A stretch of DNA of 64,000 bases, taken from NCBI GenBank assembly GCA_024207135.1, contig CP042428.1, positions 992,001 to 1,056,000 on the forward strand, in the 5' to 3' direction. A program made the position numbers and the translations under genes. Source of the stretch: Arthrobacter sp. C2 (lineage in GTDB: Bacteria; Actinomycetota; Actinomycetes; Actinomycetales; Micrococcaceae). The number at the start of each line of letters is the position of its first letter. Position 1 is the stretch's first letter. The notes under the pieces were generated by a model that was not told the DNA's origin, searched no databases, and saw only the letters and a program-made list of their open reading frames with translations. Shown here piece by piece: positions 7,170 to 47,173 of this stretch.

Positions 7170-7243
7170 GAACGACTCGCAGGGCTCCCGGGCTCGCTAT
7201 CCACCGGGATCCCCGTCGCTTCGGGTCCAGCGGTTGGGGACGG

Positions 7244-7798: not shown

Positions 7799-7910
7799 GA
7801 TCGTCTCCCCCTTGAAGGATGTGCCGGTGCTTTTCCACGAACCAACCTACGCCGATGCACCCGCGATTTGGAATGGCCGGCGCGGGGCAGCTTAACTCGC
7901 CTCCGGGGCG

Positions 7911-10307: not shown

Positions 10308-10346
10308 CCAGGCAACCCTATCGGCAGGACGCCGAGGATTCCGTGC

Positions 10347-10811: not shown

Positions 10812-11305
10812 GTCTTATCCCCGTTTCCCGAAACTTCCGATGTGCAGCCACTTGGCGCGGAGTCTAGCAACGAATCCGGCCCCGGGACATGGCACGCAAC
10901 CCGCCCGTGGGCGGAACACCGTCGCGCGGTGTCCCACCCATGGGCGGCCATTGGTCATTTGGTCTTCGCTCAGCAGGGCTTCGGGCTCTTGCCGCCGGGT
11001 GCGTAGCAACGCAGCCCGGTGTAGTCCGGGGCATCCACCGGGACGGCATCTTAGATGCGTATTGAGGCCCGCCACGGCTTCCTCAGCCCTGGCCGGCACG
11101 GCGCAGGCGACCTCGGCCCCATAGAGCCCCGCGCCCTGCTCCGGTGCCAGCTGCTCGGCGGACCGGCGGTGGTCCACGCGGCGCCGCGCAGGCCGCTCTT
11201 CACACGCGCCACACCTAGGCGGGCCTTTCGGCAACCCCTGCCCAGGTCTCCTAAACATCGGCTGACCAGACCCGTCGCCTCTGAATGGACCAGTAGGCTG
11301 GAACC
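10812..11305. other. Intergenic stretch with a possible frameshifted gene remnant
   Basis: No intact gene is visible. On the minus strand, a protein-like stretch (AEVACAVPARAEEAVAGLNTHL) in one frame is continued in another by DAPDYTGLRCYAPGGKSPKP before a stop near 10970. One shift near 11048 would join them into a short cysteine-containing C-terminus. This may be a remnant of a small secreted protein. The rest shows nothing recognisable. Confidence 0.25.
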
Positions 11306-14653: not shown

Positions 14654-15318
14654 GGCGAATCCTTTCTCGAACGACCGGACGCGGGGCACGCGCCCGTACG
14701 GACACCACGCAGGCGAAGTGGATGATCCGTGCATGGAATCCGTTCGTTCTCGACGCTACATCCGAGCAACCTCCGATGGCTAGATTGGGCCGAAGATCCC
14801 TCGGTGGACAGCCGGAAGAAAGATCGAGGCAAGCCCAACCTTGCGGTGGAGTCCGGAGTCGAGGCTTTCCCTCGAGGCACCCAAACACCATGAAGTCCAT
14901 CCATGGACGTTCCCGGCAAACAGCCATTGACAGACGATCACCTCGGCCGTTACCATTCCCCATGTGCGGCTTCGACTCGCGCAGGGAACCTGTAGGGCCG
15001 CCGAGTCCGAGCCACGAACAGCCGTGCCATATGGACAGCAGAGGAATCCCGCGCCATTCCGCTGTCCCAGCAGAACGTGCCTGCTGAACTTCTCTGCTCA
15101 AAACGATCATCCGCTTCAACGATTTGCTTCAGGGGAAGCTCCACACCCAAGGAATCTTTGAGTTGGACCTCCACTGGGCAAGGAAGCACCATCCCACGAG
15201 TCTTGCCAACCTCTGCGGGATGCTTCGTGAAGGGTCTCCACGTGGCGTGGAAACGCACTGCGCAGTGCAGTTGATTTGGGTTTGCGCGGTCGAATGCTGG
15301 CGCAGCCGGCCTCCCGTT
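14654..15318. other. Long intergenic stretch
   Basis: About 660 bases separate the dehydrogenase start from the winged-helix gene stop. A 102-residue minus-strand frame at 14950-15258 is open but has no clear ribosome site or recognisable motif, and I do not call it. No tRNA, riboswitch or clear terminator was seen. Confidence 0.4.
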
Positions 15319-15597
15319 TCAATCCCGACGAAGGAGCACGTCGAGGATCTCTCCGACCGCAACCTCATCCAGCCCTTCCCTGCGCATCGGCTGGTTCGGA
15401 TGCAGCTCGTAAAGGTTTCGGCTTCCGACGCGGCTGCGGGTCAGGTAGCCGCCCTCCACCAAATCCGACACGAGCCGGTGCGCTGCCCGCTCCTGGACTC
15501 CTACGCATTCGGCGATCTCGCGGATACGGATTCCTGGATGCCTGGCGACACAATAAAGCGCATGCATGTGGTTTGTCAGAAATCCCCATTCACTCAT
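15319..15597 (-). CDS. Small MarR-like winged-helix transcriptional regulator
   Basis: A 92-residue regulator with a winged helix-turn-helix (HPGIRIREIAECVGVQERAA, then LVSDLVEGGYLTRSRVG). It resembles small helix-turn-helix proteins that are predicted from sequence only. The ATG at 15597 is preferred over an ATG at 15627 because a TATAGT box at 15605-15610 would leave a very short leader. It faces the DUF4389 gene across 250 bases that carry palindromic TGACATGTCA sites, so it probably controls both itself and that membrane operon. Confidence 0.7.
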   Translation of the reverse strand: MSEWGFLTNHMHALYCVARHPGIRIREIAECVGVQERAAHRLVSDLVEGGYLTRSRVGSRNLYELHPNQPMRREGLDEVAVGEILDVLLRRD

Positions 15598-15621
15598 AAT
15601 GCTCACTATACCTGTTTTAAA

Positions 15622-15663
15622 TGACATGTATTCCTTGACATGTCATCTGCATCAGCTTATCGT
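15622..15663 (+). promoter_or_regulatory. Promoter and operator candidate facing the DUF4389 gene
   Basis: TTGACA at 15635-15640 and TATCGT at 15658-15663 are 17 bases apart and point to the plus-strand membrane genes. The palindrome TGACATGTCA (15636-15645) overlaps the -35 box, and a second copy of its left part, TGACATGTA, begins at 15622. This is a good site for the divergent winged-helix regulator. Confidence 0.5.
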
Positions 15664-15848
15664 TGCTTGTGTCGGCCGGACGGACCCGCTGCCGGCACGA
15701 TTCCGGGATCTCTCCGGAGTCGCAGACGAACGATGACCGTCGGACCTGGACGTCCGCGTCGGCTTCATGGCGGAGGTTCCGCCCGCAGCCACGACGCCCG
15801 AATCACTGCGTTTGAGAGCTGGCATCACCGCTCATGGAAGGAATTCTC

Positions 15849-16567
15849 ATGGAGCGCCAGCCCACGTACCCGCTTGTCCTGGAAAGCGAAGCATCCTCCC
15901 AACTGAGCCGCTGGCTCTGGCTCGTCAAATGGGTCCTGGTGGTCCCTCACGTCATTGTGCTGCTCTTCCTATGGATCGCCTTCTTCGCGCTCTCCGTGGT
16001 CGCGTTCTTCGCGATCCTGTTCACCGCCCGCTACCCGCGGGCAATCTTCGACTTCAACACCGGCGTACTGCGCTGGACGTGGAGGGTCGGATACTACTCA
16101 TATAGTGCGCTCGGCACGGACAAATACCCCCCCCATTCACCCTGGCCGACGATCCCGATTACCCGGCTCGGCTGCGGGTAGAGTATCCGCAGCAACTCTC
16201 ACGCGGGCTCGTGCTGGTGAAGTGGTGGCTGCTGGCACTGCCGCATTACCTCATCATCGGCGTATTCACCGGTGCCGCTTTCGCCGGCTACAGCCAGGTG
16301 CGCGACAACGATGCATGGGCATACGGAAGCGGCCTTATCGGACTGCTGGTATGCATCGCCGGCCTCGTCCTGCTGTTCACCGGACGCTACCCCCGCGGCG
16401 TCTTCGACCTCGTCATGGGCATGAACCGCTGGGTGTTTCGCGTTGGCGCATATGCCGCCCTGATGACCGACCAATACCCGCCCTTGCGCCTTGATCTCGG
16501 CGGCCATGAGCCTCCCGCACTCGGCGCCCACATCAAGTTCGGACCGGATCCTCTCCCGGCGAGCTAA
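15849..16567 (+). pseudogene. DUF4389 membrane protein, frameshifted at a run of eight C
   Basis: Two frames together give one DUF4389 protein. The first (15849-16181) has the membrane segment KWVLVVPHVIVLLFLWIAFF and the family motif ARYPRAIFDFNTGVLRW. The second takes over at the C-run at 16127-16134: reading TAC-CCC-CCA-TTC instead restores KYPPFTLADDPDYP, then LVKWWLLALPHYLIIG and GRYPRGVFDLVMG. One C too few or two too many explains the break. The ATG at 15849 follows GGAAGGA. The cause may be true slippage, phase-variable switching or a sequencing error. DUF4389 function is unknown. Confidence 0.7.
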
Positions 16568-16717
16568 AAACCCCGACCGGTCTCCACGGCGCGCCTTCCA
16601 GCCTGACGCCGTGGCGCCGCCAGGCACCACTGTTCATCCACTACACCGCAACATCCTGCCTCCGGCACGACTTCCACCGACCCACCCACGGCCCACCCCA
16701 TTTCCAGGGAGCACAAC

Positions 16718-17506
16718 ATGGCCACCAACGCCCACACCCACACAACATCCACACGACCCGCACCCCGAGGTCGAATGCTTCCAATGAGGCGGATCTCCTT
16801 GACCGCTGGGGTCCTGTACCTGCTCACGTTCGTCTCCATCCCGACCCTCGCGCTCTACGCGGCGGTGAAGGAAGATGCAGGCGCCTTCATCCTGGGCGCC
16901 GGAAGCACCACCGGGGTGCAACTGGGCGCGCTCTCCGAGGTCATCGTCGCCCTGGCAGGCATAGGCACCGCCGTGGTGCTATACCCGGTCGCCAAACGAA
17001 TCAGCCAAACCGCCGCCCTGGGTTTCGTGGCAGCCCGACTTGTGGAAACCTGCCTCCTCCTCGTCAGCGTCGTCAGCATGCTCTCGATCATCACCTTGCG
17101 AAACGACGTGGCCGGCTCCCCCGGCACGGACCCCGCCTCGCTGGCCATCATCGGCCAGGGCTTGGCTGCAACCTACAATTGGACGTTCTTGCTTTCAGGG
17201 AGCCTGATGCCCGTGGCCTGCGACCTGTTCCTCGGCTATGTGTTGTACAAGTCGCAGCTGGTGCCCCGCGTCCTGCCGATCATCGCGTTCATTGGTGCCC
17301 CGCTGCTCCTGGCCTCCGACATCGCAGTCTTTTTCGGCGCCTACCCCCAGGTGTCCGCGTTCTCCGCGCTGGCGGCCCTGCCCGTCGCCGTGTTCGAACT
17401 GTCGCTGGGCATCTGGCTGGTGGTGAAGGGCTTCAAGCCGAGCCCGTTCACCGACAACGGTCCATTGATCCACCACCCCGACATCCCCGCAACCGAACAA
17501 CCATAA
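16718..17506 (+). CDS. DUF4386 family membrane protein
   Basis: A 262-residue integral membrane protein with about six segments, resembling the DUF4386 family (RISLTAGVLYLLTFVSIPTL at the start; LPIIAFIGAPLLLASDIAVFF; FELSLGIWLVVKGFKPSPF at the end). The function of this family is unknown. GGGAG lies before the ATG. It follows the broken DUF4389 gene and precedes a second DUF4386 gene, so three poorly understood membrane proteins sit in a row. Confidence 0.75.
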   Translation: MATNAHTHTTSTRPAPRGRMLPMRRISLTAGVLYLLTFVSIPTLALYAAVKEDAGAFILGAGSTTGVQLGALSEVIVALAGIGTAVVLYPVAKRISQTAALGFVAARLVETCLLLVSVVSMLSIITLRNDVAGSPGTDPASLAIIGQGLAATYNWTFLLSGSLMPVACDLFLGYVLYKSQLVPRVLPIIAFIGAPLLLASDIAVFFGAYPQVSAFSALAALPVAVFELSLGIWLVVKGFKPSPFTDNGPLIHHPDIPATEQP

Positions 17507-17767
17507 GCACCCGCAGGGCGAAGCGGTCTTCGTCGGTGGCTTCCACCCATGGAATCATCCGAAAACTTGGCGAAAATTGCAGGCGGCCTTAATCTCGTCG
17601 GCTTCGTGCGTGCCAAGGTCCGGATGCCGCACCACCTACTTGATCCGGAGCATGAAAATCCCCAGAACCGAAGCAAAAGACCATGCCCGGCCTGGGCGGC
17701 CGGGCAGGCACCCCGAGACACCCCCACCGAACCACCAATCCCTTCACTTTGACTAAGGACAAAGCTC

Positions 17768-18517
17768 ATGGAAAACCAGACCCTGATCGATGCCGGAAGG
17801 CCCGACACCGGATCATACCGAACCACCGCCAAGATCGTGGGAACCATCTACATCGCGGGGATGGTGATCGGCATTTCCGGAAATATCCTGATCCTATCCA
17901 TCCTTTCCGCGCCGGATCGATTCGCCTCGATTTCGCAAAACAGCATGCTGCTGGCCGTTGCAGCACTGTGCTGGTTGCTGACCGTGGCCGGAGACATCGC
18001 CCACGGAATCCTGATGTTCCCCATCCTGCGCCAGCACAGCGAGCGGATGGCCGTTGGCTACCTCGGCTTCAGGATCATCGATGCCACTTTTATTGCCATC
18101 ATGGTCATGGTGATCCTTGCCCAGGTTCCCCTGGCCAAGGAGGCGGCAACATCCGAAGTTTCCCTGCAAAGCCTGAGCGCCGTGTTCATGCAGATGCAGC
18201 TCTACGCCTACAGCATTGCTATGTTTACACTGGGCATTGCCGGGCTGATTGTGTGTTGGGTCTTCTACAAGGCAGACCTTCTTCCGCGGGCCCTGGCCAT
18301 TTGGGGTCTCGCCGGTTACGCGATCATCCTGGGCGGATCCGCCCTGGAGGTCTTGGGCTTCGACTTGATGTCCGTCCACGCCATGCCGGGAGGCCTCTGG
18401 GAAGTCTTCATCGGCGTCTGGCTGATTGCCAAGGGCTTCAAGAACCTGTCCATGCGTTCCGGGACACCGGTTGGGCCGGTGATGCCCCTCCCGGCGCCGC
18501 TACCCAAGGTGAAGTGA
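17768..18517 (+). CDS. DUF4386 family membrane protein
   Basis: A 249-residue membrane protein with about six segments, a distant relative of its upstream neighbour (GTIYIAGMVIGISGNILIL; LWEVFIGVWLIAKGFKN at the C-terminus, matching the neighbour's GIWLVVKGFK). Its role is unknown. AAGGAC lies before the ATG. The 261 bases between the two DUF4386 genes carry no recognisable gene, so an old duplication followed by divergence is likely. Confidence 0.75.
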   Translation: MENQTLIDAGRPDTGSYRTTAKIVGTIYIAGMVIGISGNILILSILSAPDRFASISQNSMLLAVAALCWLLTVAGDIAHGILMFPILRQHSERMAVGYLGFRIIDATFIAIMVMVILAQVPLAKEAATSEVSLQSLSAVFMQMQLYAYSIAMFTLGIAGLIVCWVFYKADLLPRALAIWGLAGYAIILGGSALEVLGFDLMSVHAMPGGLWEVFIGVWLIAKGFKNLSMRSGTPVGPVMPLPAPLPKVK

Positions 18518-18627
18518 TCCCCGGTCGCGCGCATTGCCCTTCAAGCAAACTCTCTGACAGACGCGCCAACGAGCTTTGGATGCGAGCAGTGGGACATGAC
18601 ACGCCCACCGTCCCTGCTGGGGCTTGA

Positions 18628-18885
18628 GTGCAAGAATTCGCTGCAGGGCCCTCCGTGACGGGAGCCGATGAAGGGTCGTTCTGGTCGTCGTCAAAGCGAT
18701 TGCCTTGCCACGAGCTCGTCGCACCCCATCCATTCCGTACCGCCGCACGCGGGCCGCGGCTGGCCGCTGTGGAAACCGGACCGCTGGACGAAGCCGACGC
18801 ATCGATCGTGCTGGACACTGGGCTTTCCGCGAAAGCCGATGGCTTCGTTCCGCTTGCCGCACTTTGCGTCCACTTTGCCGACTGA
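18628..18885 (+). pseudogene. PIN-domain-like protein, second internally deleted remnant
   Basis: The frame contains HELVAPHPFRTAARG and ETGPLDEADA, which match residues 25-55 of the intact PIN-like protein at 12187. It continues directly with SIVLDTGLSAKADGFVPLAAL, which matches its C-terminus. About 50 central residues are missing in frame, and the N-terminus with the first aspartate is also lost. There is no good start or ribosome site. This is a decayed copy lying 6 kb from the intact gene. Confidence 0.55.
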
Positions 18886-18980
18886 AGAAATGGATTCGTC
18901 CGCTGGCTCCCTGCCTGCCCCGGCAGCCTTCCTCGTTTTCCTCCATCGCCTGAAGAACCTGCCGGTTTTCCCCAAACAAC

Positions 18981-19028
18981 AGCAGGACACGACCAAGCTC
19001 CCCCTGCGGGGTTTGGTGGTGTCCTGCT
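18981..19028 (-). terminator. Hairpin terminator after the DUF222/HNH gene
   Basis: An inverted repeat with arms AGCAGGACACGACCAA and TTGGTGGTGTCCTGCT (one mismatch), extended by CCCC/GGGG around a TGC loop. It lies 35 bases past the stop of the minus-strand HNH gene. Only a weak T-rich stretch follows, so it may stop transcription from both sides. Confidence 0.6.
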
Positions 19029-19062
19029 GGTCTTGAATTGGATGGATCTTTTCGCGGGTCCA

Positions 19063-20508
19063 TCAGCCGCCCGGCGGCCCCGTGCCGGGAAGGCCATCCT
19101 CGGATACGTTGCTTCGATGCAGCCCGGTTTTCATGCCCGGAAGGGGCGGTGCTTTCGAAATATAGGTGTGGCTGCTGGGTGTGGTGATGTTGAAGCTGTG
19201 CCGATCCCCGGGAGTCGGATGTTCGTCCCAGTCAGGTGCTTCCTTGGTCTGGTTGCAACTGAAGCAGCGACCCGAGGAATTGTCCTCGGTGGTTTTCCCG
19301 TTCTTCCGGACCTGCACCACATGGTCGATGTCGCGGATCTTTCCGTTGCAATAGGGGGTGCGGCAATATTGGTCACGCACCTTGATGAGCTTCTTCAGGT
19401 TTCCGCCAAAGCGCCGCGCCCTGGATTCCATTGCCACCAGCTGCCCGGTCCGGCTTTCAATGAACAGGCCCCTGACCCAGATCGCCAGTTCGTCCTCGGG
19501 ACCTGCCGCAACCATTTTCCTGGCTCGGTTCGCGCTGATAAATCCGTAGCCCGGTATCAGCACGGGCTCGTTGCTCTCCCCGGTCAAAACGGCGGCGTCC
19601 ATCACCAGCAGAATTTCAAGTGGGACGCCTCCGGCGACCTTGAGCCCGGTCATGAGCTCGTAGAAGGCGTCGGCCTGGATCTGCCCGGCACTTCGTTCTT
19701 CCCCGGGTTCCCTCTGGGCCTTTTCCGCTTCTCCGGCAAGCACTTGGAGAACGGCAATCCCCAGGGATAACGGCAGTGTCCCGCTGATCATGACCTCGTG
19801 GGCGTTGATCTGGTAACCACCGATGCAGCGGTTTTTCCAGGCTTTCGCCTCGAGATCCTCCTCGGTCTTGGGCTCCAGGATCTTCGCCCAGTAGGCAACG
19901 ATGTCAGCCAGCTTTGCCGTTCCCTGCTCGAAGCAGTTGTGCGTTTCTTCCCAGAGCAACCTGTCGACCAGTTGCCGGTTGGCGAGTTCCAGGTTCCGGG
20001 TTCCACTGATCACGATCTGGGCCTGCGCCCAAGTCACCTTGCCGTCCCGCAGTCCCTGTCGGGTCAAGGGCAGGTCCGCCCCCATCATCCTGGAGCTGTT
20101 CATGAATTGGGTCCCGCCCTTTGGCGAGATGCGCATGGCCAGCGCGACTTCCTTGGAGGCTCCCCAACCCGGGTTTTTTTCGCGGAGGTTACGCCTTTTC
20201 CGGGCGGCCGACAGGGAATCTTCGTAGGCCACGGCGTGGTCGGCCTGTTGCGCGAAGATCGCGCTCTTCGCGGCCTCCATCGCGGCGATGTTTTCCACGG
20301 TGTCGAAGTGGTCTGCAGGGATGTCCATGCGGTTCAGGCCGGAAGCCACGCACCTGATTCCGGCGGCGCCGTTGCTGGCAACATAGTCAGCCACCACCGC
20401 ATCCAAGTCGACGCCTTGGGCCTTGAGGTCCGCATACCCCAGTCCAGTGCCGGAACCATCTCTGGTGTTTCCGGCTGAAAGAGTACCGCCCGATGACTTC
20501 CTGGCCAT
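19063..20508 (-). CDS. DUF222 domain and HNH endonuclease family protein
   Basis: A 481-residue protein of the DUF222/13E12 type common in actinobacteria. The DUF222 part spans about residues 40-330. The C-terminal HNH nuclease has RDQYCRTPYCNGKIRDIDHV near 395, with zinc-binding cysteines, the catalytic DIDHV and the partner GRCFSCNQTKEAPDWD. Such genes occur in many copies in actinobacterial genomes; their biological role is unclear. The upstream region is AT-rich, with TATAGA about 18 bases before the ATG. A strong hairpin follows. Confidence 0.85.
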   Translation of the reverse strand: MARKSSGGTLSAGNTRDGSGTGLGYADLKAQGVDLDAVVADYVASNGAAGIRCVASGLNRMDIPADHFDTVENIAAMEAAKSAIFAQQADHAVAYEDSLSAARKRRNLREKNPGWGASKEVALAMRISPKGGTQFMNSSRMMGADLPLTRQGLRDGKVTWAQAQIVISGTRNLELANRQLVDRLLWEETHNCFEQGTAKLADIVAYWAKILEPKTEEDLEAKAWKNRCIGGYQINAHEVMISGTLPLSLGIAVLQVLAGEAEKAQREPGEERSAGQIQADAFYELMTGLKVAGGVPLEILLVMDAAVLTGESNEPVLIPGYGFISANRARKMVAAGPEDELAIWVRGLFIESRTGQLVAMESRARRFGGNLKKLIKVRDQYCRTPYCNGKIRDIDHVVQVRKNGKTTEDNSSGRCFSCNQTKEAPDWDEHPTPGDRHSFNITTPSSHTYISKAPPLPGMKTGLHRSNVSEDGLPGTGPPGG

Positions 20509-31648: not shown

Positions 31649-32065
31649 TTACCTGGTGGCGGGCAGCAGTTCGGAGATCAGGGTCTCGATGCGCGCGCGG
31701 ATCTCGTCGCGGATCGGGCGCACGGCTTCAACGCCCCGGCCCGCGGGATCCTCCAGCACCCAGTCCTCGTAGCGCTTGCCCGGGAAGATCGGGCAGGTGT
31801 CCCCGCAGCCCATGGTGATGACCACGTCCGATTCCTTCACGGCCTCGGTGGTGAGGATCTTCGGGGTTTCGCCCGCCATGTCGATGCCCACCTCGCCCAT
31901 GGCCGCGACTGCGGCAGGGTTCACGGTGTCCGCCGGGGCGGAGCCTGCGGAGCGGACCTCGATCTGCCCGGCCGAAAGGTTGGCCAGGAAGGCCGCGGCC
32001 ATTTGGGAGCGTCCGGCGTTGTGGACGCAGACAAACAGGACGGAGGGCTTGGCGGCGGTGTTCAT
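31649..32065 (-). CDS. arsC: Arsenate reductase, low-molecular-weight phosphatase type
   Basis: A 138-residue protein with the phosphatase loop C-V-H-N-A-G-R-S at residues 12-19, so the complete CX5R active site is present. Further cysteines occur in TMGCGDTCPIFPG, which fits the redox relay of thioredoxin-coupled arsenate reductases. It converts arsenate to arsenite for export by the Acr3 pump, whose stop its start overlaps as ATGA. Confidence 0.85.
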   Translation of the reverse strand: MNTAAKPSVLFVCVHNAGRSQMAAAFLANLSAGQIEVRSAGSAPADTVNPAAVAAMGEVGIDMAGETPKILTTEAVKESDVVITMGCGDTCPIFPGKRYEDWVLEDPAGRGVEAVRPIRDEIRARIETLISELLPATR

Positions 32066-33153
32066 GCTTGCACCTTTGCGGGGTTGAAGGAGTCGAAGAA
32101 CTTGCGGGACCACAGCGCGACGTAGACCAGGGCCACCAGCAGCGGCACCTCGATCAACGGCCCGACGACCCCGGCCAGGGCCTGGCCGCTGGTGACCCCG
32201 AAGGTCGCGATGGCCACGGCGATGGCCAGTTCGAAGTTGTTGCTGGCCGCGGTGAACGCCAGCGTGGTGGTGCGGGCATAGCCCATGCGCAGGGCGCGGC
32301 CGATGAGCATCGAGGCGCCGAAGACCACCAGGAAGTAGACCAGCAGCGGCAGCGCGATGCGCACGACGTCCAGGGGCTTGGCGATGATGTTGTCGCCCTG
32401 CAGGGCGAAGAGCAGCACGATGGTGAACAGCAGGCCGTAGAGCGCCCAGGGGCCGATCTTCGGCAGGAACCTGTCCTCGTACCATTCGCGGCCCCTGGCC
32501 TTCTCGCCGAAGGTCCGGGTGAGGTACCCGGCCACCAGCGGGATGCCCAGGAACACGAGGACCGAAAGCGTAATGGTCCAGATGGAGAATTCGGCGCTGG
32601 TGGTGGGCAGTCCCAGCCAGGACGGGAGTAGCTGGAGGTAGAACCAGCCCAGGGCGCCGAAGGCGAAGACCTGGAAGACGGAGTTGATGGCGACCAGCAC
32701 GGCGGCGGCCTCGCGGTCCCCGCAGGCCAGGTCGTTCCAGATGAAGACCATGGCGATGCAGCGGGCGAGCCCGACGATGATCAGCCCCGTGCGGTACTCG
32801 GGCAGGTCGGCCAGGAAGATCCAGGCGAGCACGAACATGAAGGCCGGGGCTAGCACCCAGTTGATCACCAGCGAGGTGACCATGAGTTTTTTGTCGCTGA
32901 GCACGGCGCCGGTCTCGTTGTAGCGGACCTTGGCCAGCACCGGGTACATCATCACCAGCAGCCCGAGGGCGATGGGCAGGGAGATGCCGGCGACCTGGAT
33001 GGAGTCCAGGGCCGCGCCCAGCGAGGGAATGACCCGGCCCAGCACCAGCCCGAGGGCCATGGCCGCCAGGATCCAGACGGCCAGGTAGCGGTCCAGGGTG
33101 GAGAGCTTGGCGCTCAGGTGCCGGGTCTCGGCGGGCGGGGCATTGGGCGTCAC
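32062..33153 (-). CDS. acr3: Arsenite efflux transporter, ACR3 family
   Basis: A 363-residue transporter with ten predicted membrane segments. The conserved cysteine of ACR3 is in GLARCIAMVFIWNDLACG. Family knowledge: ACR3 pumps arsenite out using the proton gradient. The start is a GTG at 33151-33153 with GGAGTG before it. It is the first gene of the minus-strand half of the arsenic operon and is divergent from arsR, with ArsR-type operator sites between them. Confidence 0.9.
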   Translation of the reverse strand: MTPNAPPAETRHLSAKLSTLDRYLAVWILAAMALGLVLGRVIPSLGAALDSIQVAGISLPIALGLLVMMYPVLAKVRYNETGAVLSDKKLMVTSLVINWVLAPAFMFVLAWIFLADLPEYRTGLIIVGLARCIAMVFIWNDLACGDREAAAVLVAINSVFQVFAFGALGWFYLQLLPSWLGLPTTSAEFSIWTITLSVLVFLGIPLVAGYLTRTFGEKARGREWYEDRFLPKIGPWALYGLLFTIVLLFALQGDNIIAKPLDVVRIALPLLVYFLVVFGASMLIGRALRMGYARTTTLAFTAASNNFELAIAVAIATFGVTSGQALAGVVGPLIEVPLLVALVYVALWSRKFFDSFNPAKVQA

Positions 33154-33179
33154 GCGGGTTCACTCCAAAAGGCATAGGC

Positions 33180-33195
33180 ATCGACGAGTGTCGAT
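33180..33195. promoter_or_regulatory. ArsR operator candidate 1
   Basis: ATCGAC-GAGT-GTCGAT is a perfect palindrome 27 bases before the acr3 start. A second, closely related site lies at 33217-33232, so the two halves of the divergent operon may each have a site. Confidence 0.55.
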
Positions 33196-33216
33196 GTATC
33201 GAGTATCCTTGCATAT

Positions 33217-33232
33217 ATCGACGATTGTCAAT
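33217..33232. promoter_or_regulatory. ArsR operator candidate 2
   Basis: ATCGAC-GATT-GTCAAT differs from site 1 by one base in each of the loop and right arm. It lies about 40 bases before the arsR start. Centre-to-centre distance from site 1 is 37 bases. Confidence 0.5.
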
Positions 33233-33269
33233 CTCCCGTCCGGGAGCCCAGGAAAGCGAGGATAGGCAC

Positions 33270-33662
33270 ATGCCCACACCGGTTGCCGCCCCCAGGCGTC
33301 GGGAGTCCCCCGCGGATCCCGTGCAGGAAACCGAAGCCCCGTGCTGCGTTCCTTCCCACGGGCAGGAGTCATTGCTGGCCGGCGAGGCCGAGGCCCTGGC
33401 GGCGCGCTTCAAGGCGCTCGCCGACCCCAACCGGCTGCGCATCCTCTCGATCGTCTCCTCCTCTCCGGAGGCCGAGACCTGTGTCTGCGACTTGTCCGAG
33501 CCGTTGAACCTGGGCCAGCCCACGGTCTCCCACCACCTGAAGATCATGGTGGAGGCCGGGCTGCTGACCCGCGAAAAGCGCGGCGTCTGGGCGTACTACT
33601 CGTTGGTCCCCGGCGCGCTGGACTCGCTGGCGGCAACGCTCAGCCCGAAGGCCAGCCGATGA
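33270..33662 (+). CDS. arsR: ArsR-family arsenic-responsive repressor
   Basis: A 130-residue winged-helix repressor of the ArsR/SmtB type. The DNA-reading helix is in GQPTVSHHLKIMVEAG. The metalloid-binding cysteines are in ETCVCDLSEPL, the CxC pair near the DNA-binding region, and a further CC pair lies near residue 25. Arsenite binding would release the DNA and switch on both halves of the operon. The ATG at 33270 follows GCGAGGA. It overlaps the next arsC by ATGA. Confidence 0.88.
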   Translation: MPTPVAAPRRRESPADPVQETEAPCCVPSHGQESLLAGEAEALAARFKALADPNRLRILSIVSSSPEAETCVCDLSEPLNLGQPTVSHHLKIMVEAGLLTREKRGVWAYYSLVPGALDSLAATLSPKASR

Positions 33663-34093
33663 GCTCCGCGCCATCGCGGCCCGGGCGCCCCGCCGTCCTG
33701 TTCGTGTGCGTCAAGAACGGCGGGAAATCGCAGATGGCCGCTGGCCTCATGAAACTCGAGGCGGGCGACGACATCACCGCCACCTCTGCCGGCACCAAGC
33801 CCGGAACAGCCATCAACCCGCTCACGGCCGAGGTCCTGTTGGAGGTCGGCGTCGACATCGGCAATGAAAAGCCCAAGGCGTTGACCGAAGAGAACATGCG
33901 GGCCGCCGGGCACGTGGTGGTCCTGGGCACCGAGGCCAACGTTCCGGCCGTTGACGGCGTCCAGGTCGAGGTCTGGGAAACCGACGAGCCTTCCCTGCGC
34001 GGGATCGAGGGCCGGGAGCGCATGGAACTTATCCGCGATGACATCCACGCACGCATCAAGGAACTCAAGCACCGCCTTCTGGATTCCCGCTAG
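33659..34093 (+). CDS. Arsenate reductase, mycothiol-transferase type
   Basis: A 144-residue phosphatase-fold protein. The loop reads C-V-K-N-G-G-K-S, so the arginine of CX5R is a lysine. This form resembles the arsenate-mycothiol transferases of Corynebacterium (NGGKS motif), which make an arseno-mycothiol adduct for a mycoredoxin to reduce. It also has SAGTKPGTAINPLT and WETDEPSLRGIEGRERM, both typical of that group. A hairpin at 34143 lies downstream. The window therefore has two distinct arsenate reduction routes in one operon. Confidence 0.75.
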   Translation: MSSAPSRPGRPAVLFVCVKNGGKSQMAAGLMKLEAGDDITATSAGTKPGTAINPLTAEVLLEVGVDIGNEKPKALTEENMRAAGHVVVLGTEANVPAVDGVQVEVWETDEPSLRGIEGRERMELIRDDIHARIKELKHRLLDSR

Positions 34094-36028: not shown

Positions 36029-36640
36029 CTAGCCACCGAACCCTGCGGTTTCGTTGGCGTTTGCTGGCAAGACCATGGCCGTCGGTGTTGCCGGTGCCGC
36101 TTCCCGCACGGGTTTGCCGGCCAGGTGCTTGAGTATGTCCGCGGTGTCGGTGACCCTGGCAAAGCCGTCCCCGTGGAGGTTCACCGCCGTTGCGGTCATG
36201 AGTTCCTCCGCCGTGAGACGAAGGGGCGGACCGCCTGCGAGAGCCGGCCCCTCCAGATCGAAGGTGGTTGTTGCATCCAGGGGTACCAACACCTCGAATC
36301 CCAGGTTTCCGCCCATCCGCGCGGTCGTTTCCACGCACAGGTTCGTCTGGATTCCCGCCACGACAATCGTCCCCAGGGAGCGGGAGCGCAGCCAGCGTGC
36401 CAGGTCCGGCGTCCCGAGAAACGACGAGTTCACCGTCTTGGTGACCAGCAGGTCCTCGCGCAGCTCGAGCACCTCGGCCATGAACCGGTTGCCCAGGGAG
36501 CCGGCGCGCAAGGTCGATAGCGGATGGGCGCTGTCATGGCGGACCTTCACCACGGGCAGGCCGCGCGCCTCCCACGCCTGCCCAAGCGCGGCAATATTTG
36601 CCAGGGCCTCGGAGAAGTTGGCGGAGCGTCCCCAGGATGG
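36029..36640 (-). pseudogene. Isochorismatase-family hydrolase, 5' end deleted
   Basis: The minus frame is open to about 36640 and begins mid-protein with PSWGRSANFSEALANI, then VKVRHDSAHPL. The catalytic lysine is in VTKTVNSSFLG and the nucleophile in GIQTNLCVETTARMGGN, but the N-terminal strand with the catalytic aspartate is gone. An ATG at 36553 could start a shorter, probably inactive product. The missing end meets the truncated AraC gene head to head. Confidence 0.65.
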
Positions 36641-36918
36641 ACCCCACCCGGACCTTTCACCGGCGCTTCAAGGAAACCATGGGGCTGGCGCCGGGCCGAT
36701 GGGTCACTCTCATCCGGCTCCAGGAAGCCAGGGCCCTGTTGGAAACCACGGCGCTCACCATCGAGCGCATTGCGCACCTTTCGGGGTTCGGCGGCGGCGA
36801 ACACTTGCGCCAGCATTTCACCGCACACTTCAACCTCCCGCCCAGCACCTACCGGGCGACCATGGGGCACGTGGCACCGAGGCTGCAGCCCGGCCGGAGG
36901 TCGACCCACGGAACCTGA
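36637..36918 (+). pseudogene. AraC-family regulator (GlxA-type), N-terminal domain deleted
   Basis: Only the C-terminal DNA-binding domain remains: TRTFHRRFKETMGLAPGRW, LTIERIAHLSGFGGGEHLRQ and FTAHFNLPPSTYRA are the two helix-turn-helix motifs of AraC proteins. The N-terminal DJ-1/PfpI-like part (about 200 residues) expected in GlxA-type regulators is absent. The residual frame begins at an ATG formed at the deletion joint. Regulators of this type often lie divergent to an isochorismatase, exactly the gene whose 5' end is missing next door. Confidence 0.65.
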
Positions 36919-37003: not shown

Positions 37004-37873
37004 CTAGCCGACGGACACGCGCAGCTGGTTGCGCCACGGATCCTCGAAGCGCAGCTCGGCGCCGGTGTGGTGGCTGGAGATCCCTGCAACCTTGAGACGG
37101 TCGGCCAGCGCGCCGACCTCGTCGGCGTTGGGCACGGTAATGACGACCTCGCCCAGGCCCAGGGTGTCCTTGCGCGGGCCCGCGCCGCGGGAGTTCCACA
37201 CGTTCATGGCCATGTGGTGGTGGTAGCCTCCGGCAGAGACGAAGAGTGCCTGGCCGTGGAAGTTGGTGGTCTTGGCGAAGCCCAGGATGTCGACGTAGAA
37301 CTGCTCGGCGGTGGCGACATCGCCGACCTGCAGGTGGACGTGGCCGATGCCGGCGTTGGCCTGCACCAGTCCGCTCACGGCCGCCTCGTTGACGTGCTTG
37401 TTGAGGTAGTTGTTGGGATCGAGGTGGAGGGTGTCCATGGCCACGGTGTCACCGTTCCAGGTCCAGGTCTCGCGCGGGCGGTCCCAGTAGAGCTCGATGC
37501 CGTTGCCCTCGGGGTCGTTGAAGTAGAAGGCCTCCGAGACCAGGTGGTCGGAGCTGCCGGTGAACAGCGAGCCGTCGAACTGTGCTGCGGAGAGCACGGT
37601 GGCGGCCAGGTCCGACTGGGTGTCGAAGAGCAGCGCGGTGTGGAACAGCCCTGCCTCGCCGCGGTTTGGGAGGTCCAGGCCCTTGCCGTCGGAAAGGTGG
37701 ACCAGCTCGAGTCCGCGGCGGCCCAGCCCAGTTCCGGCCGGCCCCTCGGAGAGCACCTCAAGGCCCAGGGCCTTCTGGTAGTAGTTGCTCATCTTCTTCA
37801 TGTCGCCGACCTTGAGCATGACGGTGCCCATGGCCAGTTCGGCGGACAGCTGGTCTTGTGTGGTGATGCCCAT
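37004..37873 (-). CDS. VOC-family ring-cleavage dioxygenase-like protein (CatE-type)
   Basis: A 289-residue protein with two vicinal-oxygen-chelate domains. The second contains the candidate metal ligands: GIGHVHLQVGD, GYHHHMAMNVW and the C-terminal DPWRNQLRV. The first domain has AMGTVMLKVGDM and FNDPEGNGIELYWDRP. The length and order fit bacterial catechol-2,3-dioxygenase-like proteins (YwbC/CatE), whose real substrates are often unknown. The ATG at 37873 follows AAGGAG. The adjacent intergenic region becomes AT-rich, marking the edge of an insert. Confidence 0.75.
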   Translation of the reverse strand: MGITTQDQLSAELAMGTVMLKVGDMKKMSNYYQKALGLEVLSEGPAGTGLGRRGLELVHLSDGKGLDLPNRGEAGLFHTALLFDTQSDLAATVLSAAQFDGSLFTGSSDHLVSEAFYFNDPEGNGIELYWDRPRETWTWNGDTVAMDTLHLDPNNYLNKHVNEAAVSGLVQANAGIGHVHLQVGDVATAEQFYVDILGFAKTTNFHGQALFVSAGGYHHHMAMNVWNSRGAGPRKDTLGLGEVVITVPNADEVGALADRLKVAGISSHHTGAELRFEDPWRNQLRVSVG

Positions 37874-38636
37874 GGTGGTGACTCCTTGGAATGAGGCGGT
37901 GGATTGTTCTTGCTTCAAGTATTACACATTTTACTTGAAGCTACAACTAAAGAGTGCCCACTGACACCACCAGGCCGCTCCTGGCAACTCCCCGGCATCC
38001 GGCGAGACGTTGCCCAAATCCCACATCCGACGCACCCCACCCCCGGCGCCAGGACCCGCAACCGGCCTGCCAGGAGTAATGATCCGGCTCGCGCCCTAGA
38101 CCGAATATGTACGCATGCGTCAAAACCGCTCAGTCGACATCAGGTCACCCTGACCGCGACGGACACCCCTCAGTCGATCGACACCCCTGCCCCCATGACC
38201 CATCAAGCTTCGCTCGACCCCCAAAGCGCCAACAAGCGCGAGCCGCTGGACCAATGCGGCCAGCTGGAGATATAGACTTCAAGCGAAGCGCTGGATTTAT
38301 CATTGAGGCCGACTTTAACGAAGGTCGATAATTGCCCAGAAACGATACATACAATTTCAGAAAAGCACCCACTTGCCATTACAAGAAAAATGAGCCATCC
38401 ATACGATGGCAACAAAATCTTCATAAGAGTAGACCTAGGAATCAATAGATAGACTACGACCCCCTGCCATATATTGGCGACAGGCTTCAGGTAACAGTCA
38501 GCAGGAACTCACCAAAACAGCGCGCAAAACTCACCCAAGCCAGGCCGCGACATTAAAGAAAAAGCAAATTCTCTACTGAGCTGAATTGTGCGCGAAGCTA
38601 AAGTATCCTTCTATAACTTTATGACGGAAGATCTAA
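37874..38636. other. Non-coding leader region of the AT-rich insert
   Basis: About 760 bases without a credible gene. Base composition falls from high GC at the left to clearly AT-rich by about 38260, so the left edge of the foreign segment lies within this stretch. No transposase, integrase, tRNA or long terminal repeat is visible. The region is long enough to hold an undetected promoter or non-coding RNA for the nuclease gene. Confidence 0.45.
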
Positions 38637-40373
38637 ATGATAAAATCATTAAAATTAAAAATGTTCAAAGGTTTCAAGTCCTTCTCGGCAACATTCAATG
38701 GGAGCGCGCTGCTCCTAGGGCCGAACAATGCCGGGAAAACCACGCTTATTTCAGCAATAAGGCTTTGCAATGAGGCCGCCAGGTTCACCACCCGAAATGG
38801 ACCTTCCGAATATTTCTCAACGGGCGAAAAGACCGTAAACGGGTACTATCTGGGCAAGATACGAACAGATTCATTCAATCTAGAAAATATTAGACATGAG
38901 TTCATTGAGGGTTCCGAATCACGATTGGAACTACGATACCATTCCGGGGCTACAATAAAGATAGTTTGGCCAGTGGACGACCCGCCGTTCTTCTGGCTTG
39001 AGCACAAAGGCAGCCATGTCCAAACGGCTGCCGCAGCGAAAAAACTCGTGCCAGTCATCGGTATAGTACCGACGCTTACGCCCCTGGAGCGAAACGAAAA
39101 AACGCTAAGTAAAACACACTTAAAAAGTCATATCGAAACACGGTTGTCAAGTCGACATTTCAGAAATCATTTAACTTTATCCAAAACATCGAATAGTGTA
39201 GAGTATGACGAATTAATAGATTTTCTGCTGAAAAATACACCAGAAATTACCGGATTGGTACTTACATCCCGAACAACCGATGGCGACACCTGGCTTGACG
39301 CATACTATATGGACGGAACTAGTCGAACAGAAAAGGAAATATTCTGGGCTGGGGATGGAATTCAAATATGGCTTCAATTGCTATTCCATCTTTGGCGGGC
39401 CAAGGACTGCTCCACAATTCTTTTAGATGAACCAGATGTTTTTCTTCATCCCGATCTACAACGTCGATTAGTACGCGTAGTCGAAGCAACTAATCAGCAG
39501 ATTGTCATGTCGTCACACGCAGCGGAAGTAGCATCCGAAGCCGTGCCATCATCCCTTCTCTGGGTCGAGCGAAGTGCTTCCAACGCTGTTCGAATTTCGC
39601 CAGAAAATGGCTTGGGTCTAATCGCAGATGGCCTCGGTAGCTCATTCAATCTGTCCATGGCACGTGCGCTGAAGTCGAAGAACGCCCTCTTTTTAGAGGG
39701 CAACGACATGAAGATACTACGTGTTATTGCCGAGCGATTAGACTTCAATGCTTTTTCAATGGAGAAAAACCTTGCCATAATCCCAATTGGCGGGTTCACT
39801 CGATGGCCGAGCGTGGAATCGTTTGGCTGGTTGTCGTCTAAATACATGGGCTCCGCGGTGAATATCAGACTGATACTAGATAGGGACTATCGACAAGATG
39901 CCGAATGTAGTGATCTTGAAAAAGAGCTACTGGCGGCGAATGTAAAAGCTCATATTTGGAAGAAAAAGGAACTCGAAAGTTATCTAATTTCACTTGATAT
40001 CATCCACGAGTACACAGGTCTTGAAAAAGCAGTCGTTCGTGCCGAGTTAGACTTTTTGACAGAGTCATTTCGCGAAGACGTATTCGGGCAATACACAACG
40101 CACGCTTCGCCCGCACTAGATTCACGTCTAGACGAGTCTACAAAAATCTCAACGTTACTGAGATCATTCACGTCAAAATGGGAAGATAGCTTGGAGCAGC
40201 GAATGTCGATGGTTCCTCCTAAAGACCTAATCACCATGTGGAACAGGAGAACTCAAGAAACAAAGTTTCCAGTGCTGACTGCTCGCAACCTGGCCTCTGT
40301 TATAACTTTCGATAACCTTGATTGGGAAATGATTCAGCTTCTAAAAGATATCGAGTCGGAACTTACATCATAG
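38637..40373 (+). CDS. OLD-family ATP-dependent endonuclease (AAA ATPase plus TOPRIM)
   Basis: A 578-residue protein. The ABC-type ATPase has Walker A GPNNAGKTT at 28-36, a GDGIQIWLQLL signature-like motif at 240-250, Walker B TILLDEPD at 260-267 and an SSH switch at 293-295. A TOPRIM nuclease follows: E354 in FLEGNDMKIL, the acidic pair in LILDRD at 412-417 and the KKKELESYL motif at 443-451. The length is close to the P2 phage OLD protein. Class 1 OLD proteins act alone; class 2 need a UvrD-like partner (Gabija), which is absent here. Codons are strongly AT-rich, unlike all neighbours, and the gene abuts a beheaded MFS gene. A defence role is inferred. Confidence 0.8.
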   Translation: MIKSLKLKMFKGFKSFSATFNGSALLLGPNNAGKTTLISAIRLCNEAARFTTRNGPSEYFSTGEKTVNGYYLGKIRTDSFNLENIRHEFIEGSESRLELRYHSGATIKIVWPVDDPPFFWLEHKGSHVQTAAAAKKLVPVIGIVPTLTPLERNEKTLSKTHLKSHIETRLSSRHFRNHLTLSKTSNSVEYDELIDFLLKNTPEITGLVLTSRTTDGDTWLDAYYMDGTSRTEKEIFWAGDGIQIWLQLLFHLWRAKDCSTILLDEPDVFLHPDLQRRLVRVVEATNQQIVMSSHAAEVASEAVPSSLLWVERSASNAVRISPENGLGLIADGLGSSFNLSMARALKSKNALFLEGNDMKILRVIAERLDFNAFSMEKNLAIIPIGGFTRWPSVESFGWLSSKYMGSAVNIRLILDRDYRQDAECSDLEKELLAANVKAHIWKKKELESYLISLDIIHEYTGLEKAVVRAELDFLTESFREDVFGQYTTHASPALDSRLDESTKISTLLRSFTSKWEDSLEQRMSMVPPKDLITMWNRRTQETKFPVLTARNLASVITFDNLDWEMIQLLKDIESELTS

Positions 40374-40430
40374 GTTTTCGGATATTTTTGAGAAAACTCC
40401 AACTGGAACTTATGATTTCTCCGTCGTGCG

Positions 40431-41321
40431 ATGCGCGGCTTCGGTCCGGACGCCTGGCGCTGGATGCTTGCCAGCCCCGGGATCTTTGCCGTGATCACCC
40501 TACTCTTCCGCCTGGGCACCCCGGAGTCCCCGCGGTGGCTGCTCTCCCGCGGCCGGGTCGACGAGGCCCGCACCGTGATCAAAAAGGTCTACGGCAACGA
40601 CTACGACGTGGATTCCCTCGGCGAGGACGAAGCCAGCGGCAAGCGCGCGGCAACCTTCATCGACATCTTCAACAAGAAGTTCTGGCGCCGCACGCTTTTC
40701 GTCTCCATCTTCTGGACTGCCCAGGTGATCCCGCTCTTCGCGGTCTACGCCTTCGCCCCGGAACTGCTCGCCTCCTTCGGCCTGGGCAGGGACGCGAACC
40801 TCTACGGCGGTTCCCTGCTGATCTCCCTGCTGTTTGTCGTCGGCGGCATCCCGGGCCTGTGGCTGGTCGAACGCATCGGACGGCGCAAGCTGCTGTTGTG
40901 GACCCTCGGCATCATCGTGGTGGCGCTGGCGGCCCCGGCCTTCGTCCCCGGGGTTGGCCCGAAAACGCTGTTCACCGCCCTGGCGTCGGGTGCCTTCACC
41001 TTCCTGGAGGTCGTGTACCCCAACGAGCTGTTCCCTACCGACATCCGGGCCACCGTGGTCGGCTTCGGCACCGCGATCAGCCGCGTGGGCTCCGCTGCAA
41101 GCACCTATCTCATGCCGGTGGCCATCATCAGCTTCGGCGCCTTGGGCGCCCTGCTGATCGGCGCCGGGATTTCCCTGATCGGACTCGTGGCCACATTCAT
41201 CCTGGCCCCGGAGACCGCCAACCGCTCGCTGGCAGACATCTCCAGCGGCAGCAACAAGAAGAAGAAAACCAAGACCAACGGAACGACCGAAGAAACGAGA
41301 GCAGAAGGAACCCTCGTATAA
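40431..41321 (+). pseudogene. Sugar-porter MFS transporter, N-terminal half missing
   Basis: The frame starts abruptly with RGFGPDAWRWMLASPGI and continues through the central MFS motif ESPRWLLSRGRVDEAR into six C-terminal membrane segments (PGLWLVERIGRRKLLLW; ETANRSLADI). The first five or six membrane segments are gone, so about 180 residues are lost. The missing part ends at the AT-rich insert, so the insertion or a linked deletion removed it. The surviving stop TAA overlaps the former start of agmatinase. Confidence 0.75.
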
Positions 41322-42077
41322 GCAAGCACCAGCCTATAGGCCCCGTCGAAGCCACAAAGGTCCCCCGGTTCGCCGGATTGGGCACCTTCGCCAGACTCCC
41401 GCAGATCGAGGAGCAAGCCCATGGCCAAGGACAAGAGGATCATCGCCGTCGGCGGGGACCACACCATTGCCCTGCCGATGCTGCGGGCCGTCAACAAGGT
41501 CCACGGTCCGGTGGCCCTGCTGCACTTCGACGCCCATCTGGACACCTGGGACACCTACTTCGACGAGCCGATCACCCACGGGACCATGTTCCGCAGGGCA
41601 TTCGAGGAGGGCCTGCTGATCGAGGACAAGTCGATGCACGTGGGCATCCGCGGCCCGGTCTATGACCAGGACGACTTCCTGCGGGACCACGAATTCGGCT
41701 TCCAGATTATCCGCCGCACCGACATCGACGACATTGGAGTGCCGGCGGCCATCGCCAAGGTGCGCGAGCGCCTGGGCAACACCCCTGTCTACCTCTCGGT
41801 CGACATCGATGTCTTGGACCCGGCCTTCGCTCCGGGCACCGGACCCCCCGAAATGGGCGGCCTGCACTCCCGCGAGCTGCTGCGCCTGCTACGCGGGCTC
41901 AACGGCATCAATATCGTCGGCGCCGACGTGGTGGAGGTCGCCCCGGCCTACGACCACACGGACATCACCTCGCTGGCCGCGGCGACCGTGGTCTTCGACA
42001 TGATGGGCCTGATGGTCAACTCCGGCAGTCTGCGGCCCAACGAGAACGACTACCGTCTAGAGGTCCCGGCAGTCTAG
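41318..42077 (+). pseudogene. Agmatinase/ureohydrolase, start codon lost and internally deleted
   Basis: The ureohydrolase core from 41421 keeps all metal-ligand motifs: GGDHT, HFDAHLD and SVDIDVLDP. The first residues of an agmatinase (SKHQPIGPVEATK; RFAGLGTFARLPQIEE) lie in a different frame at 41318-41415, and about 90 residues between the two parts are missing. The expected start at 41318 reads ATA, with AAGGAA seven bases before it. A shorter protein of 218 residues could start at the ATG at 41421 after GAGGAG. It was the second gene of the MFS operon. Confidence 0.65.
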
Positions 42078-46076: not shown

Positions 46077-46643
46077 ATGAGCGACAGAATCACCGATGTC
46101 TGGGGCTCCCGGACGCCCTATGCCCCGGGCTCCCCGTGGCCGGTGCGAGTGGACTCGCTGCTGGCGGAAAGCGTTGCCGATCAGGACGTCCAAGCCTGGG
46201 TGCAGTCGGCCTGCCTGCTGTGTTCCAACGGGTGCGGATTGGACATCGCGGTCCGGGACGGGAAAATGGTCGGCGTGCGCGGCCGCTCCAACGACGCGGT
46301 GAACCACGGGCGGCTTGGCCCCAAGGGGCTGCTTGCCGGTTGGCAAGGGGTGGCGAATCCAGATCGGCTGACCCGGCCGCTGGTGTGCGAGGGCGGGGAA
46401 CTGGTGGAAACCGACTGGGAAACCGCCATGTCGCGGATCGTTGATGCCAGCCGATCCTTGCTGCGGGACAAGGGGCCCCTGAGACACGCGTTCTACACCA
46501 GTGGCCAGTTGTTCCTGGAGGAATACTATGCGTTGGGCATCATCGGCAAGGCCGGCATCGGCACCCCGCACATGCACGGCAACACCCGGTTGTGCACCGC
46601 CGCCGCGGCCGCGGCGCTGAAGGAAAGCCTTGGCGCGGACGGG
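46077..46643 (+). pseudogene. Molybdopterin oxidoreductase (nitrate reductase/formate dehydrogenase type), C-terminus lost
   Basis: The first 189 residues are a good match to the family: an N-terminal iron-sulfur motif C46-x2-C49-x3-C53 (CLLCSNGC), the NHGRLGPKGL segment and the cofactor-domain region GNTRLCTAAAAAALKES. After LGADG the frame becomes random and ends at 46943. At least 450 residues of the catalytic domain are missing. The gene is therefore a truncated remnant. A perfect hairpin lies over the junk region. Confidence 0.7.
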
Positions 46644-46840
46644 GTGAATGCCCAATATGCTTTCACTCTTGACCGGGTGGCCGCGTCCGGGCACAGCGTG
46701 GTCCGAGAGCCGCTGGCATCGCCCGCGTCACCTGGTCCTGATCGATGCAAACCAGAAGCGTCGGGAATGGCGGTGTCCCCACGACCCTTCGAAGGTGTGG
46801 ATGCGGCTGGCTGCACTCCCCCATGGGGGTGCGCCCCGAC

Positions 46841-46882
46841 CACGTCTGTGGCCCCGGTCAAAGGACCGGGGCCACAGACGTG
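46841..46882 (-). terminator. Perfect 19-base hairpin terminator
   Basis: Arms CACGTCTGTGGCCCCGGTC and its exact complement flank an AAAG loop, 22 bases past the stop of the minus-strand GlsB-like gene. There is no long T-run. Confidence 0.65.
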
Positions 46883-46903
46883 CGTTGACCGGAATTCGGC
46901 AAA

Positions 46904-47173
46904 TCAGCTGGCGGTCCTGTTCCTTCCGGTGATGGCCCCGTAGACGCCGGCAACGATGAGCCCGCCCAGAATGGCCAGCAGCCAGGAACCGAGGCTCCAG
47001 AAACTCATTTCACCGTCATTGAAGAGCGCGTCCCCGATCCAGCCGCCCAAGATGGCCCCGACGACGCCGAGGACCAGACTGGTGATCCAGCCGCCGCCCA
47101 CCCGTCCGGGGAGAACCATCTTGACGATGGCGCCAACGATCAATCCAAGAATGATCCATCCGATGAAACCCAT
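46904..47173 (-). CDS. GlsB/YeaQ/YmgE-family stress-response membrane protein
   Basis: An 89-residue protein with three short membrane segments and the glycine-rich family pattern (GWIILGLIVGAIVKMVLPGR; SLVLGVVGAILGGWIGD; LLAILGGLIVAGVYG). Family members are transglycosylase-associated or general stress proteins with no clear biochemical role. AGGAG lies before the ATG at 47173. It is 53 bases downstream of dps, probably in the same stress transcript. Confidence 0.85.
   Translation of the reverse strand: MGFIGWIILGLIVGAIVKMVLPGRVGGGWITSLVLGVVGAILGGWIGDALFNDGEMSFWSLGSWLLAILGGLIVAGVYGAITGRNRTAS

Follow-up and report, generated by a model that had tools for sequence, protein, structure and literature searches.

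Within the window analysed here, a stretch of 64,000 nucleotides from Arthrobacter sp. C2 (contig CP042428.1, positions 992,001 to 1,056,000, in a host genome of 4.56 Mb on a single contig), one plus-strand gene at 38637..40373 joins an ATP-binding cassette (ABC) ATPase and a TOPRIM-type nuclease in a protein of 578 residues. Our favored interpretation, held with moderate confidence and drawn from sequence comparison, is that this gene is a single-gene antiviral system from a branch of the ABC-ATPase/TOPRIM proteins that is both rare and divergent. The gene is intact, foreign, and horizontally acquired by replacement of resident DNA, and it belongs to a clade of five proteins (tree support 100/99). 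By profile and tree comparison, PARIS- and BREX-associated proteins are closer to this clade than classic phage OLDs are.

An intact gene in foreign DNA

The gene runs from an ATG at 38637 to a stop codon at 40371-40373 with no internal stops and a length of 578 codons, and its coordinates are exactly those of the initial annotation. A possible ribosome-binding site, GGAAG (38626..38630, plus strand), was found by eye and ends 6 bases before the ATG. The ABC ATPase half (residues 1-300, 38637..39536) is matched by Pfam AAA_21 at 77.3 bits, over residues 25-294, and by AAA_15 at 54.7 bits, both of which exceed the cut-off. Its motifs are a Walker A sequence, GPNNAGKTT (38718-38744), DEPDVFLHPDLQ, and H294 (39516-39518); the alignment also places the DEPDVFLHPDLQR region at 39414-39464, and the G-x-G-x-Q-x-W region is kept in all five clade members. 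The TOPRIM-type nuclease core and C-terminal domain (39666..40370) were delimited by conserved residues and profile-profile matches. The acidic residues are E354 (39696-39698), D415-D417 (39879-39887), and E445-E447 (39969-39977), and the stretch of 131 residues after E447 includes K529 (40221-40223). In an alignment of nine proteins, the window protein included, E354, D415, D417, E447, and K529 are invariant in all nine, as are the Walker A lysine K34, D264-E265-P266, and H294. By alignment, the order and kind of the acidic positions agree with the metal-binding residues reported for the OLD protein of T. scotoductus (Ts OLD) and for P2 Old (PMC7049728). The proposal that an ABC ATPase and a TOPRIM-type nuclease share one gene is thus supported.

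Compared with the copy in Arthrobacter pullicola, codon positions 1, 2, and 3 differ at 39.9, 27.8, and 67.7%, respectively, and changed codons lie behind 205 of the 310 residues that are identical between the two proteins. Divergence is dominated by third positions, and the gene is under protein-level constraint. This bears on the alternative that the gene is now a functionless passenger, decaying passively within a fragment of AT-rich DNA. Both genes to its right are broken, as is the copy in Cupriavidus sp. EM10, which is what such an account has in its favor. Set against this, all 578 codons are intact, the key residues are kept, and third-position changes prevail, and we consider decay very unlikely indeed.

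The surrounding composition is equally distinctive. The gene has a G+C content of 45.1% and the 2477-bp segment that carries it (37951..40427) one of 47.2%, while 1-kb intervals outside the segment range from 59 to 75%. G+C at third codon positions is 0.45 in the gene, compared with 0.88 in the major facilitator superfamily (MFS) gene and 0.90 in the glyoxalase gene, the two neighbors measured, in agreement with the sharp contrast first remarked upon. The segment has no homology in the seven sister loci where the MFS gene is retained. In these 7 of 14 same-genus genomes, the stretch from MFS gene to agmatinase gene aligns as two long pieces: homology to the window ends at 37946-37950 and restarts at 40428 in six of the seven (at 40443 in G011), which places the junctions. 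The six sister intervals examined hold a PucR-type regulator, confirmed by Pfam in the one interval checked (G010), followed by the beginning of an MFS gene that is complete, at 465-485 codons. We conclude that the regulator and roughly the leading third of the MFS gene gave way to foreign DNA. What is left of the latter is a sugar-porter-type remnant (40428..41321, plus strand) that matches Pfam Sugar_tr at profile positions 168-449 and lacks about 164-184 codons; the initial annotation was correct in calling this gene truncated but overstated the loss as its first half. Two further changes had gone unrecorded, namely the loss of the regulator and the breakage of the agmatinase gene downstream. 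Neither of the two findings that would have contradicted the initial annotation was made: no housekeeping family reached its cut-off, and none of the 14 same-genus genomes has a match to the window protein, while the MFS genes of the six examined sisters are full length.

A five-member clade with no shared neighbor

The remaining clade members are copies in A. pullicola (54% identity to the window protein), in G926, a genome of the same order (34%), in Cupriavidus campinensis (27%, intact, on a 2.8-Mb replicon, a megaplasmid), and in a prophage on a viral contig (32%). Each sits in a different setting. The A. pullicola copy lies in DNA of 44-54% G+C surrounded by DNA of mostly 58-72%, and in its near relative G244 both flanks lie 31 bp apart, a clean empty site from which an insertion of about 3.7 kb in A. 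pullicola follows. At the left end of that insertion is a 170-bp element (L008:6198-6367) that occurs in several copies in G108 and in two copies in G215, and a degraded copy of a nearby gene adjoins it. In G926, the gene (58-64% G+C, flanks 69-77%) lies between a glycosyl hydrolase gene and, on its other side, an unnamed frame with an IclR regulator. The C. campinensis copy is bordered by a dihydrolipoyl-dehydrogenase-type gene and, opposite, a helix-turn-helix gene, and the prophage copy is downstream of tail, endolysin, and spanin genes. All four non-prophage sites are AT-rich. Among 283 frames of at least 80 residues within 5 kb on each side, no neighbor is common to any two of the five sites at E 1e-3, and therefore no partner travels with the gene. 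This supports a stand-alone gene. A search for an upstream element common to the relatives gave nothing under E 0.01.

The branch is rare. Genomes with a match, the host included, number at least 2 of 395 in the family and at least 2 of 297 in the order; in the phylum the figure is at least 2 of 396, the second being only a distant relative, L012. These counts are lower bounds, with the best three to four candidates scored per genome. For contrast, Pfam OLD-like TOPRIM matches occur in 24 of 276 genomes of the class, and the host genome is not among them. A family search with AriAB in 198 genomes of the phylum at E 1e-30 gave no match even in its 14 controls and is hence uninformative. The phage collection contained no match to the window protein or to the prophage protein.

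Placement among BREX-associated, PARIS, and OLD proteins

When whole proteins were compared with PADLOC models, the window protein scored 75 bits with AriA, 65 with NsnB, 59 with AriAB, 56.5 with GajA, and 44.8 with Old, and the 25 matches listed of 123 are all defence-system models. The best model was AriAB for the prophage copy and AriA, then AriAB, for the Cupriavidus copy. The ATPase dominates these scores, which are ambiguous, so the comparison was restricted to the part that follows it. For the five members, this part aligned best with L012 and a Nostoc protein, L152, taken together (score 124, E 1.3e-17), followed by four ATPase-DUF4435 fusions (68.6, E 9e-9, over the DRD and E-x-E regions), L016 with L151 (54, E 4e-7), and ten actinobacterial OLD/GajA-like proteins (52, E 1.2e-6, with the alignment stopping past the second motif). 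None of 30 column shuffles reached any of these scores. The score against 20 phage OLDs, 21.9, was equalled by 1 of 30 shuffles, and by 2 of 40 in a four-member version, and is thus not above shuffles. Single proteins gave E 2.5e-14 for L012, 8.8e-12 over 282 columns for L152, 1e-6 to 0.01 for the DUF4435 fusions, and 2.5e-5 for the best of the ten OLD/GajA-like proteins, the other nine being at 0.0025 or worse. The ten came from 19 of 26 loci, nine having been dropped when a Walker-B pattern found no open frame in them; one of the five DUF4435 proteins (L154) did not contain the pattern and was excluded. Among the phage OLDs, 8 of 20 were scanned with Pfam (seven above the OLD-like TOPRIM cut-off) and 5 of 20 with PADLOC (Old best in all five), and the remainder are named by similarity. 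In the tree, the five-member clade stands beside L012/L152 and L016/L151, joined by a fork with support of 94/92, just below the tool's star; the ATPase-DUF4435 fusions form a separate clade (100/100), and 11 of the 12 phage OLDs used, out of the 20, fall on the far side. The twelfth, L049, fell outside the group on a long branch, and L152 is also a long branch. Of the distant ATPase-TOPRIM-like genes, L151:3998-5683 is carried by a conjugative plasmid of Emticicia, where an IS91-family transposase and a tyrosine recombinase are found nearby, and L016:4968-6701 lies among genes that by eye are of structural type on a viral contig.

A close comparison with a known system is offered by BREX, for which TOPRIM-linked OLD-ABC proteins are reported to be backup effectors (PMC12839542). 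The gene for the Nostoc protein (pNsp_c AAA ATPase WP_114083283.1, L152:3326-5203) lies on a plasmid in a BREX-1 operon, between pglX and pglZ. Like the window protein, it is one polypeptide with an ABC ATPase, and both have D-x-D, an E-I-E-N-Y-L motif, and a conserved C-terminal lysine; the nuclease and C-terminal half of the clade is homologous to that of the Nostoc protein. The window gene differs in not being part of a BREX operon, with a PADLOC match in 0 of its 10 neighbors.

In PARIS, the ATPase is reported to sense a phage protein, upon which the TOPRIM enzyme AriB cuts tRNA (PMC12409363). Two-gene PARIS was rejected on gene content, with no DUF4435 match among the neighbors or in the whole genome. 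The initial annotation had correctly noted that a second PARIS gene is missing, but this does not exclude PARIS because the system is also described as a single fused gene (PMC9122126). The window gene could then be a genuine fused AriAB, with Ocr-like anti-restriction proteins as its triggers and host tRNA as its substrate. Fused AriAB and ATPase-DUF4435 proteins likewise unite an ATPase with a TOPRIM domain in a single gene, the nuclease half scores best with AriAB among PADLOC models in the four of four members given, and the alignment to the DUF4435 fusions described above covers both acidic regions. Yet the AriB/DUF4435 domain (PF14491) is unmatched by all four halves, even at E 10, leaving a remote profile similarity; the fusions keep to their own clade, one of the four reaches just E 0.01 when compared singly, and the AriAB profile has 694 positions against 578 residues here. 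We regard PARIS in this strict sense as unlikely.

Another alternative is a true Class 1 OLD nuclease, which would degrade DNA, as reported for the T. scotoductus enzyme, or cleave tRNA, as reported for P2 Old. By published definition Class 1 OLDs are lone genes (PMC10568477, PMC13261556), which fits, and P2 Old, Ts OLD, V. cholerae OLD, and E. coli YbjD share with the window protein an ABC ATPase and TOPRIM-type acidic residues; the Walker A/B motifs and H-loop expected of a Class 1 ATPase are present in the window protein. The P2, V. cholerae, and YbjD proteins were set against the clade by description rather than by direct sequence comparison. For YbjD, protection is reported to be unaffected by loss of nuclease residues. 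The metal-A triad E, D, D corresponds by alignment to the invariant E354, D415, and D417, the nuclease half aligns with the actinobacterial OLD/GajA-like proteins, and when the ATPase is included the profile aligns to the 20 phage OLDs at 99.2% probability with the acidic motifs covered, which makes common descent of the whole architecture plausible. Nevertheless, Pfam OLD-like_TOPRIM (PF20469), tried on four members, is unmatched in the window, A. pullicola, and Cupriavidus proteins and reaches 13.1 bits in the prophage copy, below the cut-off of 23.2; the half-protein score against phage OLDs does not exceed shuffles, and 11 of the 12 phage OLDs in the tree are far off. The 131 residues past E447 also make a long C-terminus, while Ts OLD is described as being without a C-terminal helical domain (PMC7049728). 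We judge Class 1 membership improbable. The label "OLD-type" is fair in a wide sense only; membership in the classic OLDs is not supported, as the nuclease half is nearer to BREX-associated and DUF4435 proteins.

Gabija GajA, a Class 2 OLD, shows ATPase similarity in a PDB profile search (E 5.9e-12), and its chain 8jq9_B is also 578 residues long; a catalytic lysine is reported for Class 2 (PMC7049728), and the window protein has K529. Gabija itself was rejected, in accord with the initial annotation, as no adjacent UvrD-like helicase (GajB) was found among the 8 neighbors scanned with Pfam or the 10 scanned with PADLOC. The same scans found no DUF4435 and no reverse transcriptase among these neighbors. 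A retron (Class 3 OLD) was likewise rejected, as initially proposed, with no reverse transcriptase (PF00078) match in the whole genome and no Rfam match to a non-coding RNA partner across 37800-40600, up to E 0.5. IbfA/HEC-04 is another ATPase-TOPRIM protein, reported to lower phage yield, but it has 518 residues and is encoded in a plasmid operon (PMC12111858); it is likened to the window protein by description and not by sequence, and HEC-04 is not among the 25 PADLOC matches listed. A known NCBIfam equivalog was rejected (best, antiphage_MADS3, 34.7 bits against a cut-off of 420). Housekeeping SMC, RecF, and Rad50 were rejected as well, since the generic AAA_21 and AAA_15 alone reach the cut-off and no named housekeeping model does.

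Several observations weigh against a single-gene antiviral system of this kind. The C-terminal half has no match to any Pfam TOPRIM model, even at E 10, and the call of a TOPRIM domain consequently rests on motifs and profile-profile alignment. D357 follows E354 by three residues, one fewer than in published OLDs, where the metal-B sites are an acid four residues after the first Glu and [S/D]-x-E; the prophage copy has the spacing of four, and E445-x-E447 is present in the window protein. The whole A. pullicola protein is best matched by NsnB, whole-protein AriAB scores come largely from the ATPase, and those of the nuclease halves are weak (15.7-21.6 bits). None of the ten window neighbors has a PADLOC match. 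The Cupriavidus sp. EM10 copy (L010, about 9887-11350), at the same place as that of C. campinensis, has a disrupted reading frame in its 5′ part. The prophage copy is preceded, at a distance of 88 bp, by a Doc-like gene and followed by a DUF3800 gene (L013:4160-4903 and 7008-8204); both are on its strand and may be partners there or form an accessory cluster. Finally, an archaeal OLD-family protein is reported to serve the cell cycle and not defence (PMC12796447). This last point, together with P-loop similarity of the Rad50/RecF kind, would also suit a DNA-repair or maintenance ATPase of the host or of a mobile element with no defence role. Against such a function stand the lack of a match in all 14 same-genus genomes, its rarity in the family, its AT-richness, and its carriage by a prophage, and we find it quite improbable.

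Around the segment, the left neighbor is a glyoxalase-family gene common to the sisters (37004..37918, minus strand), and the MFS remnant is followed by the agmatinase-family pseudogene (41322..42077, plus strand), which has lost its start codon and carries 231-bp and 8-bp deletions relative to four aligned sisters, with an 8-bp repeat at the larger deletion. A repeat search of the junction flanks gave one 9-bp direct match and no other, and no integrase or insertion-sequence gene was seen in the frames beside the ATPase-TOPRIM gene. Elsewhere in the window, the flanks of 36130-36819 are contiguous in sister G010, which makes this a second extra segment; it holds isochorismatase-type and AraC-type gene fragments. 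A molybdopterin-oxidoreductase-type frame of 288 residues (46077-46943) covers just positions 1 to 92 of a 353-position profile and is probably broken. By eye, 31649-34093 is an arsenic-resistance-like cluster of ACR3-like, ArsR-like, and two ArsC-like frames. The stretch 15000-20500 has lower G+C, mostly 0.59-0.65, and includes a DUF222/HNH-endonuclease gene (19063-20508).

Proposed mechanism and meaning

If the gene is a single-gene antiviral system, we hypothesize that the N-terminal ABC ATPase oligomerizes, senses infection, and holds the nuclease fused to it inactive. Infection, signalled perhaps by an anti-host protein of the phage as in PARIS, would act with ATP to switch the nuclease on. 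One metal would be bound by E354, D415, and D417 of the TOPRIM site and a second by E447 together with E445 or D357, while K529 of the C-terminal domain may be the catalytic lysine. Two-metal chemistry would then cut nucleic acid and arrest growth of the infected cell, and by analogy the outcome is probably abortive, through cleavage of tRNA or DNA. Host tRNA is our first guess for the target, at a little under an even chance, because the nuclease half is nearest to PARIS-like enzymes; DNA comes second. The gene may have spread as one-gene cargo, by replacement in the window, by insertion in A. pullicola, and by carriage on a prophage.

A bolder proposal, rather unlikely though possible, is that the clade is a distinct and unnamed one-gene immune class in which a PARIS-like sensor ATPase, a TOPRIM RNase, and its own lysine-bearing C-terminal domain act free of partners. 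This class would move as a one-gene cassette across Actinomycetota, Pseudomonadota, and prophages, and might be ancestral to, or derived from, the modules recruited by BREX.

No description of the branch was found among the listed titles and abstracts and the papers cited here from an open-licence library, a scope outside which most subscription papers lie. In 2023 it was named as an open question whether broad phage defence can be provided by a lone bacterial ATPase-TOPRIM protein (PMC10568477), and the tested cases found from later years are few. The clade offers compact members with no apparent partner in several hosts, a prophage copy and the A. pullicola insertion with its clean empty site among them, and the locus described here is a clear case of a lone ATPase-TOPRIM gene gained by horizontal transfer. 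Lying between classic OLDs and PARIS- or BREX-associated modules, the clade helps to pose the question of whether a given type of TOPRIM goes with DNA or with tRNA as its target.
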